DNA from: an uncultured Planctomycetota bacterium
Lineage (GTDB): Bacteria; Planctomycetota; Phycisphaerae; Sedimentisphaerales; UBA12454
Direction of reading: 5' to 3'
Assembly (NCBI GenBank): GCA_903847315.1
Contig: CAINDG010000054.1
Span: forward strand, 1-49,741
Length of the DNA: 49,741 nt
Shown: positions 19,432 to 32,521 of the stretch, piece by piece
Numbering within the stretch: position 1 is the stretch's first letter
Layout: the number at the start of each line of letters is the position of its first letter
Notes under the pieces: generated by a model
Databases searched by the model: none
Told to the model about the DNA's origin: nothing
What the model saw: only the letters and a program-made list of their open reading frames with translations
Made by a program: the position numbers and the translations under genes

Positions 19432-21852
19432 TTACTGCAGTTTTTCGTAAGGCCACATCTCGATGCCGCCGTCAAGAACTTTTACATCCTTAAAGCCCTG
19501 ATGTTTCAATATAATCGCCGCTTCATAAGCCCTGAGCGAATAATTACAAAACGCCACGATGGGCCTGTCCTTATTAAGTTCCATAAATCGCGACCGCAGC
19601 GAAGCAAGCGGAATAAATACCGCATCGCTTAGCCGTTGCTGCCTGTACTCAGACGGCGTTCTTACATCCAGCAGCACAAAATCTTTCTTGTCCTGTATCA
19701 TTTGCCGAACCTGTATCGGACCAATCCCATCCATCAGGCCGTCAAGTTTATTTCGGGCGACATTCGCCGCCGTAATAATATTATCAATCACCGGCGCATA
19801 AGGCGGCGCATAGCACAAATCAAGATTCGCTATTTGCTCAACCGTCATTTTGCCGCTAATCGCCGTCGCTGCGACATCGATTCGTTTGTCGGTATTGCCT
19901 GCGCCTATCGCTTGTGCGCCCAGAAGCCTGCGGCTCTTTTTGTCAACGACAAGTTTCAGCATCACAAGCTCCGCTCCCGGCACAAAATGCTCTCTGTCCG
20001 GCGCAGGAACAAGAACCGTAACAATATCGAATCCCGCCTTTTTAGCTGTATGTTCCGTAACGCCGGTAAGCGCGACATTATAATCGAAAACTTTGCACGC
20101 CACCGTCCCCAGAATCGGAGAAAACGCGTCATTTCCGCCGCAGATATTTACCGCAGCCACTCTGCCCTGCTTATTCGCCGTTGAGCCTAAAGGCACATAA
20201 CAGGGCTTTTGCGTAATCATATCGATATTCTCGACGCAATCGCCGGCTGCGTAAATGTCGGGGTCGGATGTTTGCATTTGCGGATTGACTTTCAGCCCGC
20301 CGATTGGCCCGATTTCAAGACCCGCCTGTTTGGCCAAAGCAATATTAGGCCTGTGTCCGGTCGCGATTATCACAAGGTCTGCCGGATATGTTCCTTTGTC
20401 AGTTACAACAGATTCGACAGTATCTTTGCCCTCGAATTTTTTTACACCCGTTCCGGTCAGGACTCGCACGCCGTGCGATTCGAGCTGATTTTCCACAAGC
20501 ATCGCAAGTTCCAAATCCAAAAGCCGGAAAATCTGCGGCAGCTTTTCAACTATCGTTACCCTGCACCCCTTCTTTACCAGAGCTTCCGTCATCTCTATTC
20601 CGATAAGTCCGCCGCCGACAATAACAACATCGTGGGCCTTGCCGCGGTCAAGAGCCGCTTTTATGCCCTCTGCGTCCGTCACGCCGTGAAGTGTAAATAT
20701 ATTGCCGAGTTTTATTCCTTCTATATTCGGCCTAATCGGCTCCGAGCCGGTCGCTATTACAAGTTTATCATAATCGAGCAACGACTCGGCATTATCAACT
20801 AAATGTTTTACACGAACCTGTTTATTTTTACGGTCAATCGCTATCGCCTCGGTCTGGTTCATAAGATGAACATTTTTTACCTGCTGGAAGAATATCGGGT
20901 CTCGCACAACGCCTGCAGGTGAACTCATCAGTTCGCTCTGGTCTTTAACAACGCCGCCGATGTAATAAGGCAGTCCGCATCCCGCGTAAGACAGCAGTCT
21001 GCCCTTTTCGACAATCGTTACATCAGCGTCAGGGTCAAGACGCATAACCTTCGCGGCGACTTTCGGACCTGCCGCCACTCCGCCAATTATTACTACTTTC
21101 ATTGGCTTTTTCATATTTGTATCTCCAGTGATTTCTTCCGCTGCTGTTTTTGCCGCAGCTTTAAGATTTACTACAAGTTCAACTCCCCCCAGATGCGATT
21201 TCTCGATATGAACATTTCCGCCCGCCGCCTCGACCATCGCCTTTACAAATGCAAGACCGAGCCCAGTACCGGGCCGCGATGAATCATGAGCGCCGGTCGT
21301 CCTGAAAAAAGGCTGAAATACCTTTTCGTAATTCTCTTCCAAAATTCCAATGCCCGAATCGGCGATTCTTATCTGGTATGTTTTCATCGCCTCGTTATAC
21401 AAAAGAACTATTTCAATCCTGCCGTTGTCGGGTGTGTATTTTATCGCGTTTGAAAGCAGAGCTTCAAACACTTCGGTCATCGCCGCCTCACTGCCCGCCG
21501 CCCACGCCGGCTCAACATCGACTTTTGCTGTCAGGGTTATATTATGCTGACTTGCCTGCTCGCTGTAGGTTATCGAGCTTTTGCGGACGATTGCCGAAAG
21601 TTCGACCTGCCCTTTGAACGACACAGGGTCGTTAAAGGCTTTGGAAATCGCAAGAAGTCTTTGCGCAGCAACCAGCGCCTCATCGCAGCGTCCAATCGCT
21701 CTTTGCAGAAGGTCTTTTTGTTTTGGCGTAACAGGCCCTGCAAATTCGCCCGAAAGTGTCTCAAGAATTGTGCCTATGGATGCAATCGGCCCTTTAAGCT
21801 GATGCGCTACGAGCGTCGCGAATTTCAAAGGGTCTGATATGATATTCTTCAT
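19432..21852 (-). CDS. Histidine kinase / CoA-disulfide reductase / rhodanese fusion protein
   Basis: An 806-residue protein with three parts. Residues 1-~235 are a histidine-kinase core without any sensor domain: phosphoacceptor His17 in AHQLKGP, N box EALLSNAIKYTPDNG, G boxes DSGIGI and GTGLGLAFV. Residues ~250-700 are a FAD/NAD(P)H disulfide reductase of the CoA-disulfide reductase/NADH oxidase type, with IIGGVAAGPKVA, active Cys292 in YAGCGLPYY, and AAGDCVE. Residues ~715-806 are a rhodanese domain with the loop CNYSLR (Cys769). Reductase-rhodanese fusions are known and handle persulfides or polysulfides; I do not know of a kinase joined to the front. An internal ATG (codon 247) has GGAG 8 bp upstream, so a shorter reductase-rhodanese may also be made. 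No response regulator lies nearby. It is last in the minus-strand gene string. Confidence 0.88.
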   Translation of the reverse strand: MKNIISDPLKFATLVAHQLKGPIASIGTILETLSGEFAGPVTPKQKDLLQRAIGRCDEALVAAQRLLAISKAFNDPVSFKGQVELSAIVRKSSITYSEQASQHNITLTAKVDVEPAWAAGSEAAMTEVFEALLSNAIKYTPDNGRIEIVLLYNEAMKTYQIRIADSGIGILEENYEKVFQPFFRTTGAHDSSRPGTGLGLAFVKAMVEAAGGNVHIEKSHLGGVELVVNLKAAAKTAAEEITGDTNMKKPMKVVIIGGVAAGPKVAAKVMRLDPDADVTIVEKGRLLSYAGCGLPYYIGGVVKDQSELMSSPAGVVRDPIFFQQVKNVHLMNQTEAIAIDRKNKQVRVKHLVDNAESLLDYDKLVIATGSEPIRPNIEGIKLGNIFTLHGVTDAEGIKAALDRGKAHDVVIVGGGLIGIEMTEALVKKGCRVTIVEKLPQIFRLLDLELAMLVENQLESHGVRVLTGTGVKKFEGKDTVESVVTDKGTYPADLVIIATGHRPNIALAKQAGLEIGPIGGLKVNPQMQTSDPDIYAAGDCVENIDMITQKPCYVPLGSTANKQGRVAAVNICGGNDAFSPILGTVACKVFDYNVALTGVTEHTAKKAGFDIVTVLVPAPDREHFVPGAELVMLKLVVDKKSRRLLGAQAIGAGNTDKRIDVAATAISGKMTVEQIANLDLCYAPPYAPVIDNIITAANVARNKLDGLMDGIGPIQVRQMIQDKKDFVLLDVRTPSEYRQQRLSDAVFIPLASLRSRFMELNKDRPIVAFCNYSLRAYEAAIILKHQGFKDVKVLDGGIEMWPYEKLQ

Positions 21853-21934: not shown

Positions 21935-24055
21935 TTATTCTCTGACCGGCATAATTCCGACTCCGCCGCTGAGAGTCGCACTTGCCGCTCCGGTTTTGAG
22001 GTTATATTCTATCCCCTCGGTAAAAACGCCGTTTAGCATACAAGGCATTTCCGGAGTGCCGGAAACGGTCATAAAATCTTCCGCGGCGTTGTAAATAAGC
22101 TCCTTGCCGGCAAATTCATATTTGCCCTGTTCGTAGTAAACGATTCCGCCGGTCGCTTTAAGTTTTTTCAATTGAGCCTTGCCTTTTATCGGCTCAAAAT
22201 AATCAATGTCAACCTGACGCGTATCGATTGTGATTCTTTGTCCATAACCGTTCGCGAGAACAGGCAGATAACCGATATGTATCCCGGCGGTTTTTTCGCT
22301 GGATGCGCTCACATGCATCGAATTTGTGCTCCAGACAAGTTTGGTAAATCCCTCAACAAGCGTGAAACACGGTTTGTCGAGCGATTTTTGTCCCGAAGGA
22401 TTGGCGGAATTTTGGGAAGTATTGCCGTACTCAATTTTGCCTCTGCCTGTGGCGATTATATCTCCCATAGCACGGTCATAATCGATTCTCTCGGATTTGA
22501 GCCTTACGTGACTTAATTTTGTTTTGTCAAGCATTCTCAGGGATTCAAGCCGAACGTTAGGCCCGATGACTGCTATATGCGATACATCTGAAGAAGCCAT
22601 AATATCCTTGCTGTCTCGTTTTTCATTGAGATTCGCGATAAGTTTGCTGCCGTAAAAAGTATTTTCCTCATCATAAAAATCGGTCTGCTTGACAAATTTA
22701 CCTTTTACGTCGCCGTAGAAGATTGCCTCCCTTTGCGGCACAACAAACTGAGCGCCCTGTTTCGCACTTATAATAAACGGCATTTTCCCACGGCCTTTGG
22801 GAGTTTCAATCTGGGGATAAAAAACCAGTTCCACCTGTCCCGTGGCACTGGCAGTCTGGGTTGCGATATCGTAACCTATTCGCTGGGCCAAGAGTACATT
22901 CCGCTGGCCAAGCCAATAGACAAGATCGCTGCTCAACTGATAAAAACTCCTGAACTCGGTCGGTTTAAACTCGTCGAGATTGGCGGCTAAAAGCGGCTTT
23001 ACTATCATCGGACCGTCACATTTCACCCTGGCGACTATAGTTTTTTGCTGTGAAGGACCCGTTAACAAGGAAGTCGCAGTACTGTTATCCCTGGACAGGG
23101 CGGCATTGGGATCCTCTTGCAGCCTGTTATTCTCGGATACTGCAACATTGGAATCCTGCTGCGGCTGTTTTTTCTGCGACCAGAGAAGATTTGTTATCGC
23201 AATCTCATCGGCAAGGATAACTTCCTCTTTATATTCTATTGTTACATTATCCCTGAACAGACATTGATAATTGTCTTCTTTTTTAGCAGCAGCTTTCGGG
23301 GGCGGTTCGGAAGATTTATCGGCAATTGTCGCAGGTTCAGATGCTTTAGCTGTCTGCGATTTGGCGACTGCTTCGTCGCCGGGCGATTTCTCCAGTTTCT
23401 TTATATTTAAAAAATTAACTTTCTTTATTTTAAGATATTCCAGCCTGTTAGTAATACTGTTATATATAATTTCCAGGCCTTTCCCTAAAAGGTCCGCATC
23501 GGCTGAAACAAAATTAACATCGTTGTTGGACCACAGCATCGAACGGTCGCTGTCGAACGTCACCTCATTAAGATAAATAAAACTATCCGCGCGTTTGTCC
23601 TGCCCAAAAATATGAACGATAACATTACCTTTCAAAACAGCCTGCCTGGGCGAAGGGTCTGCCCCTTCAACATTCTCAAGCTCGACTGTACCTGTATCGG
23701 CGGTGATATTACAGCGGAGATTTTCCTGAAAAACATTCATATAAGGCTTGTCGAGTATCCATTCATCGCCGCTTTTGTGCAGAACTTTTTCAAAACCGAC
23801 TACACGTTTGAGCTTTCTCGTCTTCGGGTCGACTGTTTCAAAACGGGCCTTTTCCACATACTCAAGTCTTGTCTTGCCAACCTGGCCGGCGTTGGAATCG
23901 GAGGCGAATCCGTTTATATCTTTCTGCTCAATCCCGTAATCCTGTTTGGATATTCTTATAATACCGATATTGCTGAATATCCTGTAAATCAAAAAGACAA
24001 ACAGAACAACAGCAAACGAAACAAACCAGATTTTGAATTTTCTGTTCTGAATCAT
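21935..24055 (-). CDS. Large LptC-like membrane-anchored protein (LPS export)
   Basis: A 706-residue protein with one N-terminal membrane helix (residues ~9-28) and a large periplasmic part. The first ~190 residues resemble LptC, and the position directly after kdsD and kdsC matches the kdsD-kdsC-lptC order of proteobacteria. LptC passes lipopolysaccharide from the inner-membrane LptBFG complex to LptA. Normal LptC is about 190 residues, so this one carries ~500 extra. These include a low-complexity linker rich in Ala, Ser, Lys and Pro (~230-265) and later beta-rich stretches that could be further LptA/OstA-like modules (inference). Neither lptA nor lptB follows. The start ATG has no clear ribosome site, and the gene lies 18 bp after kdsC. 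Confidence 0.75.
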   Translation of the reverse strand: MIQNRKFKIWFVSFAVVLFVFLIYRIFSNIGIIRISKQDYGIEQKDINGFASDSNAGQVGKTRLEYVEKARFETVDPKTRKLKRVVGFEKVLHKSGDEWILDKPYMNVFQENLRCNITADTGTVELENVEGADPSPRQAVLKGNVIVHIFGQDKRADSFIYLNEVTFDSDRSMLWSNNDVNFVSADADLLGKGLEIIYNSITNRLEYLKIKKVNFLNIKKLEKSPGDEAVAKSQTAKASEPATIADKSSEPPPKAAAKKEDNYQCLFRDNVTIEYKEEVILADEIAITNLLWSQKKQPQQDSNVAVSENNRLQEDPNAALSRDNSTATSLLTGPSQQKTIVARVKCDGPMIVKPLLAANLDEFKPTEFRSFYQLSSDLVYWLGQRNVLLAQRIGYDIATQTASATGQVELVFYPQIETPKGRGKMPFIISAKQGAQFVVPQREAIFYGDVKGKFVKQTDFYDEENTFYGSKLIANLNEKRDSKDIMASSDVSHIAVIGPNVRLESLRMLDKTKLSHVRLKSERIDYDRAMGDIIATGRGKIEYGNTSQNSANPSGQKSLDKPCFTLVEGFTKLVWSTNSMHVSASSEKTAGIHIGYLPVLANGYGQRITIDTRQVDIDYFEPIKGKAQLKKLKATGGIVYYEQGKYEFAGKELIYNAAEDFMTVSGTPEMPCMLNGVFTEGIEYNLKTGAASATLSGGVGIMPVRE

Positions 24056-31138: not shown

Positions 31139-32521
31139 TTAAGTTCTTGGCGGTATATGCAGGCCCAAACCGAAGGCGTCTTCCCACGCTTCTTTGAGAA
31201 CCTCTGAAACTGTCGGATGCGCAAACGAAATTTCGCTTATTTTTTCTTTGCTGCCCAAAAGAATCCGTGCAGCAGCAATCATTTCAGTAACGCCGGCGCC
31301 AACCATTGTTACACCGAGAATTTGATTTGTTTTTTTGTCCCGTATAACTCTTACTTCGCCGACCGTTTCATTATGCGCAAGACTCCTGCCGTTGGCTCTG
31401 AAGAATGACCTGCCGACAGTGTAATCAATCCCCGCCTGTTTGCATTTAGTCTCATTTTTGCCGACTGATGCGACTTCTGGAAATGTATAAACCGCCCTCG
31501 GCACAAGCGAATAATCTTCTATGCGAGCCTTACCACCCATCGCATTTTCAGCGGCTGTCTCCGCTTCAAGAAATGCGCCGTGAGCAAGATATGTCGTCCC
31601 GACCGCGTCGCCAATCGCATAAACGCCCGGCACATTCGTTTCCATTCTGTCATTGACCTTTATCGCTGAACCGTTCATCTGGAGCGAAAGATTTTTAACA
31701 GTCTGATTGTCGCAGAACGCTTTTCTGCCGACAGAAACAAGAACCTTCTCGGCCTCGATTGATGTACCGTCTTCGAGAGAAAGTTTTATCTTTGAACCTG
31801 ACTTTTCGGAAGTTGTCACCTTTTTGCCGGCAATTATATCTATACCGAGTTTTTTGAATTCTCTTGTTAATAATTGCCCTACCCATTCATCCTCAAACGG
31901 CAGAATATTCGGCAGCGCCTATATAATAGTTATTTTTGAGCCGATGGCGGCATAAATACAGGCCATTTCGCAGCCGATTACTCCCCCGCCTATTATAATC
32001 ATCGACTTGGGTATCTCGGCCAGGGACAAAGCCTCCGTACTGCTTATTATTGTTTTGCCGTCAAAGCGAACAGACGGAATTTCTATCGGTACCGAGCCGG
32101 TAGCGATGATTATTTTTGCCGCTTCAATCTCAGCCGGCGAATTTCCCTGCACAGCGATTTTATTTTTTGCCGTAACAGTACCCGTCCCCTGAAATATTTT
32201 TATTTTATTGCTTCCAATCAATCCAGCCAGACCTTTTCTTGACCCCGCAACGACCGCTTCTTTTCGGCTTTGCATTTTCGGCCAGTTTACTCTTGGGTTA
32301 TCGAAATCAATCCCCATCAAACCGGCATTTTTTGCAAGATTAAAAATATGGGCAGAGGCCAGCAGTGTTTTCGACGGGATGCAGCCCCTGTTAAGACAGG
32401 TTCCGCCAATTTGCTCCTTTTCGATAATGGCAACGGCTGCGCCTTTTTGTGCGCATCTTATTGCAGCGGCATATCCGCCCGGCCCCGAACCGATTACAGC
32501 AACGTCAAATTTTTCAGCCAT
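31139..32521 (-). pseudogene. lpdA: Dihydrolipoamide dehydrogenase interrupted by one in-frame amber codon
   Basis: Read through, the frame gives about 460 residues, the usual Lpd length. It has FAD motif AVIGSGPGGYAAAI, redox pair GGTCLNRGCIPSK, NAD motif IIIGGGVIGCEMA, AIGDAVG, and the C-terminal catalytic His-Glu in AHPTVSEVLKEA. Codon 201 (31921-31919) is TAG. The frame on both sides is the same, and the missing residue falls where Lpd proteins have Glu in ...TIIEALP, the Glu that holds the NAD ribose. GAG to TAG would explain it. TAG ends nadE, kdsD and pelA here, so recoding is unlikely; a real nonsense mutation or a consensus error fits better. The start is ATG 32521, with GGAG 7 bp upstream. 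It follows birA, nadC and uvrB. Confidence 0.88.

Follow-up and report, generated by a model that had tools for sequence, protein, structure and literature searches.

NADH-dependent persulfide reductases (Npsr), such as those of Archaeoglobus fulgidus (6pfz) and S. loihica (3nta), and the CoA-persulfide reductase 8a56 combine an FAD/NADH reductase with a C-terminal rhodanese domain, and the known members of both groups lack a kinase. HisKA-type sensor histidine kinases with a PhoR/PnpS/WalK-like core are built in the order DHp-CA, and a sensor placed behind the ATP-binding domain is unusual among histidine kinases. In the HoxBC-HoxJ regulatory hydrogenase system, a metabolic redox enzyme, in this case a separate hydrogenase, serves as the sensor for a histidine kinase controlling hydrogenases, whereas RegB and ArcB are membrane redox kinases that sense quinones, are subject to cysteine-based control and contain no reductase domain.

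The gene described here lies in a window of 49,741 nucleotides (contig CAINDG010000054.1 of an uncultured Planctomycetota bacterium), meaning the whole stretch of DNA that was analysed. It is a single uninterrupted open reading frame on the minus strand, on which the initial annotation was silent, with an ATG start, a stop codon included in the coordinates and no internal stops, and it joins a histidine kinase core to an Npsr-type reductase and a rhodanese domain (Table 1). Compared with PhoR/PnpS/WalK-like kinases, the fusion has no N-terminal sensor and carries an enzyme after the CA domain; compared with Npsr and 8a56, it adds a kinase to the same reductase-rhodanese arrangement. A literature search, short of most subscription journals, gave no description of a protein with such a layout, and the initial annotation had likewise known of none. 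The fusion is immediately preceded on its strand by a 706-aa open reading frame (21935-24055) that has no Pfam match and resembles an Lpt/OstA-type envelope protein by its sequence.

Table 1. Features of the fusion gene in the window and gene order around the fusion in other genomes
Feature	Genome, locus	Position	Strand	Basis
HK-Npsr-rhodanese fusion gene, 806 aa	window	19432..21852	-	ORF and translation; Pfam
HisKA/DHp region, residues 10-71, H-box HQLKGP	window	21640..21825	-	Pfam HisKA 8e-4
His17, predicted phospho-acceptor	window	21802..21804	-	26/26 fused proteins
Cys56 in DHp region, candidate redox cysteine	window	21685..21687	-	26/26 fused proteins
HATPase_c, residues 122-232; N box (N135), DSGIG and GTGLGL motifs	window	21157..21489	-	Pfam 2e-20
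Linker, residues 233-250; 16-22 aa in relatives, poorly conserved	window	21103..21156	-	comparison of fused proteins
Predicted ribosome-binding site and start within the gene: GGAG, then 8 nt, then the ATG of Met247 in frame	window	21112..21126	-	GGAGATACAAATATG
FAD/NADH reductase (Npsr/CoADR type), residues 251-700	window	19753..21102	-	Pfam Pyr_redox_2 and Pyr_redox_dim; 6pfz 7e-154
Cys292, catalytic thiol beside FAD	window	20977..20979	-	aligns with A. fulgidus Npsr Cys42; 26/26
Rhodanese domain, residues 714-800	window	19453..19713	-	Pfam 2e-17
Cys769, rhodanese active-site cysteine, present in window protein	window	19546..19548	-	C in 18/26 fused proteins
Fusion-Rex-Ech-type hydrogenase operon	G004, L103
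Fusion-receiver-Ech-type operon	G037, L089
Rex-GAF kinase-receiver-fusion, divergent from Ech-type operon	G024, L086
hox NiFe large subunit-maturation protease-receiver, convergent with fusion	G115, L096
NiFe large subunit (HoxH)-protease-fusion	G063, L094
Fusion-HypC-HypD	G016, L087

The kinase core spans residues 10-232 and shares with PhoR/PnpS/WalK-like kinases both the domain order and the H, N, G1, F and G2 motifs. Merely nine residues lie ahead of the HisKA match, so that the description of this core as sensorless in the initial annotation is right for the N-terminus; the ATP-binding boxes reported there are also present, and their motif residues are invariant in the 26 distinct full-length fused proteins compared, the window's own included. 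The invariant positions comprise N135, D165, G167, G169, G195, G197 and G199 in the CA domain and His17, Gln18, Leu19 and Pro22 in the H-box. A degenerate ATP-binding scaffold with no signalling function might be suspected from the HisKA match, which scores under the curated Pfam cut-off, and from the Gln that follows the phospho-acceptor His, where Glu or Asp is commoner; however, HQLKSP H-boxes are known in other kinases of the class, and the invariance of His17, N135, D165 and the G-box glycines across 26 proteins makes a dead kinase highly improbable. Cys56 is likewise invariant, and most of the other kinases in the comparison lack it. As a hallmark of the fusion alone it is not supported, since a Cys occupies this position in some HQLKSP kinases that are unfused.

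In the reductase half, Pfam recognizes Pyr_redox_2 (residues 251-544, 4e-70) and Pyr_redox_dim (585-688). The name CoA-disulfide reductase, proposed from the sequence at the outset, needs correction: the NCBIfam model TIGR03385 matches along the whole reductase (1.5e-130), with a common fold and catalytic Cys, but the score of 436 bits remains under the curated cut-off of 579. Among solved structures, the reductase is closest to NADH-dependent persulfide reductases, namely 6pfz and also 3nta. The former, deposited under the name NADH oxidase NoxA-3, is taken here to be the A. fulgidus enzyme of PMC7969121. The FAD/NAD folds, dimerisation domain and catalytic Cys expected of an Npsr are all present, and the active-site Cys, the NADH-side Glu and the CoA-pocket loop of Npsr and 8a56 align with the fusion. 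The invariant E436 corresponds to Glu183 of A. fulgidus Npsr, one of several residues credited with disfavouring NADPH, and residues 310-316 correspond to residues 60-66, the loop over the CoA pocket of that enzyme (PMC7969121). Cys292 and Cys539 are invariant in the 26 fused proteins, none of which has lost Tyr681 or the FAD/NAD motifs; His17, Cys292 and Cys769 fall where the initial annotation had placed them, Cys292 aligning with its A. fulgidus counterpart. A structure prediction from seven close homologs (mean pLDDT 56) yielded an unusable model. Elsewhere in the window, a second pyridine nucleotide-disulfide oxidoreductase-like stretch occurs on the minus strand (31229-32146), its match containing a single in-frame TAG.

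The joining of a redox enzyme to a kinase core that looks intact is real and conserved. It exceeds chance, as identical domain order and the same joint are found in 25 distinct relatives with 52-82% identity to the window protein, and an assembly artefact is ruled out by the occurrence of this joint in many independent assemblies. Conservation in relatives, which had been suggested as a check, extends to eight groups at family level within the class and to a single genome from a different class. The whole fusion is present at 70-82% identity in seven further genomes of the window genome's family, fusions across the order and class (families f1, f4, f5, f6, f7, f16, f18 and f26) are mostly 55-61% identical, and the genome from another class, G632, carries it at 52% identity as the sole carrier among 29 genomes of its class. 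A complete fusion occurs in 22 of the 298 genomes of the class sample; the named relatives are metagenome-assembled genomes, and all counts given here treat related genomes separately and are inflated by shared ancestry. One peptide-pattern scan outside Planctomycetota, sensitive to close relatives only, gave no further fusion.

The refuting case named in the initial annotation, relatives with two separate genes and a stop between them, was not encountered: no relative examined has the kinase as its own gene. Kinase-less orthologs, mostly with 55-65% identity over the reductase, do exist in f3, f4, f16, f19 and other classes; in the kinase-less class genomes tested, an orthologous free kinase was absent both beside the reductase and elsewhere, and the top kinase matches are generic and about 30% identical. 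Some of these orthologs lie near other regulatory genes, including a PAS sigma-54 activator in G019, with a similar gene in G023 (L061:10903-12270, L062:6562-8058), and a GAF-SpoIIE protein in G253 (L064:1073-2500). In a tree built from the reductase part only, 27 of 28 fused proteins form one clade (support 99/97), the other being L104 of G632, which lies apart from it at an uncertain position; one main origin of the fusion is the simplest reading. The fused set includes L036 and L039, each cut by a contig end, since the kinase part comes before the reductase in L036 and is found on another contig of the genome for L039. A row inside the fused clade without the fused label, L071, represents a second G053 copy starting at a contig edge, and a same-family kinase fragment (L191) ends at another contig edge of this genome, so that L071 is probably a broken fusion. 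In addition, an apparently decayed fusion was found at L190:4108-4620 (G306:C228), where the N-terminal part of the kinase is followed at once by a short reductase-matching stretch, CKVFD, and then a stop, apparently through a long deletion or an assembly error.

The linker harbours a potential second start. Met247 lies four codons before Met251 and is preceded by GGAG at 8 nt, and GGAG or GGAGG is positioned 7-8 nt before an in-frame linker ATG in 12 of the 26 fused genes, with a thirteenth carrying GGAGG before a GTG; the feature is mostly absent in f7 and f16. The linker Gly codon is GGA in all 12 site-bearing genes, as against 3-31% GGA among the Gly codons of the same genes, which gives a product of 1.4e-11 under an independence that these related genes do not have. 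Any such Shine-Dalgarno (SD) motif accompanies 34 of 481 internal ATGs, linker ATGs included, and the kinase-less ortholog L040 has its own ribosome-binding site, GGAGATAGTACAATG, nearly equal to the internal site. Codon bias, rarity of the motif and likeness to the L040 site together make internal initiation likely, and a free reductase is probably also produced from about half of the fused genes. The resemblance to a native ribosome-binding site is consistent, too, with the loss of a stop between adjacent genes, after which the fusion would have persisted since both parts function, with the internal start delivering the reductase and with no special coupling in the joined form, and the unconserved linker sequence and the lack of an obvious SD at the full-length start of the window gene point the same way. 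Against such an uncoupled fusion, which we consider unlikely, the joint has been kept across deeply diverged lineages, among which no gene was found split again, the linker stays within 16-22 aa, the 13 of 26 genes without an internal SD-start remain fused, and a free orthologous kinase occurs in no kinase-less genome tested.

Gene content links the fusion to hydrogenase genes. NiFe large-subunit genes are present in all 26 genomes with a complete fusion and, within the class sample, in 22 of 22 fused genomes versus 153 of 276 without the fusion, hydrogenase genes being common in the class (175/298). Family scans of the neighbours place hydrogenase, Hyp, Rex or receiver genes next to the fusion in six families (Table 1). 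In G037, the fusion and the gene of a GAF sigma-54 activator flank a gene for an 859-aa protein with a PPDK_N domain (L089:2332-4911). In the window genome, the fusion adjoins carAB, away from hydrogenase and receiver genes, and the hox operon is located on another contig (G000:C48, L131), where the last gene encodes a 124-aa receiver (L131:10964-11338; G000:C48:65963-66334) with 48-82% identity to its counterparts in relatives. The search for an orphan response regulator proposed in the initial annotation thus yields a candidate, but one that is also found without the fusion: this receiver occurs in 16 of 22 fused genomes and in 18 unfused class genomes, is missing from the fused genomes of f7, and is adjacent to the fusion in G115 though not in the window genome. 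The pairing is therefore not exclusive, and the receiver is no more than a candidate partner. More generally, the 124-aa receiver is a conserved last gene of hox operons in the class (L151-L170), with or without the fusion.

The rhodanese cysteine, which has been proposed to take part in the sulfur relay (PMC7969121), has a different history from the other catalytic residues. Of the 26 fused proteins, 18 have C at its position, 6 have G and 2 have S, and the truncated fusion L039 has Ala, whereas the Cys is kept in 44 of 44 unfused proteins. The losses fall in about four tree lineages, and the difference between fused and unfused proteins has a Fisher value of 1.7e-4 when related sequences are treated as independent. 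With this residue gone from 8 of the 26 fused proteins, the mechanism cannot in general be a persulfide relay that uses it, and its loss in fused proteins only fits a shift from turnover to sensing. An alternative is a bifunctional protein that is first of all a working persulfide/NADH enzyme dealing with reactive sulfur, with a kinase that regulates or reports on the reductase and signals via Cys56 or another input. The intact Cys292, Tyr681 and FAD/NAD motifs in all fused proteins, the retention of the full enzyme by kinase-less orthologs, and an internal start suggestive of a need for free enzyme would suit such a protein, but the loss of a relay residue in fused lineages only and the presence of hydrogenase genes and redox regulators as neighbours argue against it, and we regard it as rather doubtful.

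The conservation of the fusion, often beside hydrogen-metabolism genes, suggests that the enzyme probably serves as the sensor of the kinase. The proposal of the initial annotation, a flavoprotein sensor through which persulfide or redox state would control phosphorylation, is thereby supported in part. Our best reading, held with evenly balanced confidence, is that the protein may be a cytosolic NADH/persulfide-responsive histidine kinase that tunes hydrogen/NADH metabolism, with the fused enzyme as its sensor. Counting against this reading are the place of the window fusion beside carAB, the non-exclusive receiver, the commonness of hydrogenase genes in the class and the unusual position of a sensor behind the ATP-binding domain. 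Sequence comparison establishes the fusion and its conservation, the kinase and reductase motifs, the internal SD-ATG and the association with hydrogenase genes, whereas we infer what the signal is, which way it acts, which partner takes the phosphate and what follows. In this model, the soluble kinase would be governed by a persulfide-reductase dimer, fused behind the ATP-binding domain, whose state would follow the NADH/NAD+ ratio, the availability of persulfide, polysulfide or oxidant, or both. This state could be read at the FAD and Cys292, perhaps also at Cys56 of the kinase, and would alter autophosphorylation at His17; phosphate would then pass to a receiver, plausibly the single-domain receiver of the hox operon or, in other families, the receiver beside the fusion, and the output would be an adjustment of hydrogen/NADH redox metabolism. 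The internal ribosome-binding site would probably give free reductase as well in roughly half of the lineages. The proposed cysteine-based control recalls RegB and ArcB, and a redox enzyme as sensor recalls HoxBC-HoxJ, although here a fused flavoprotein reductase would replace the separate hydrogenase. A more specific scenario is put forward tentatively, with low confidence: an Npsr might have been taken over as C-terminal sensor by a cytosolic histidine kinase that controls NiFe-hydrogenase systems via receivers, with the gene giving the coupled form and, through internal initiation, free enzyme as well, and with the rhodanese site decaying in several lineages as sensing replaced catalysis.

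What is new here is the contrast between the invariant kinase residues, Cys56 and Cys292 and the lost rhodanese cysteine, together with the start in the linker and the link to hydrogenase genes. If the sensor reading is true, the cytosolic NADH/persulfide redox state would be tied directly to two-component signalling, with an enzyme that replaces the sensor domain and is positioned after rather than before the kinase core. The reductase alone, the fusion with an intact rhodanese and the fusion with a dead rhodanese would then constitute a natural series for the passage from enzyme to sensor, and mostly uncultured anaerobic planctomycetes would have a testable route for the tuning of their hydrogen metabolism.
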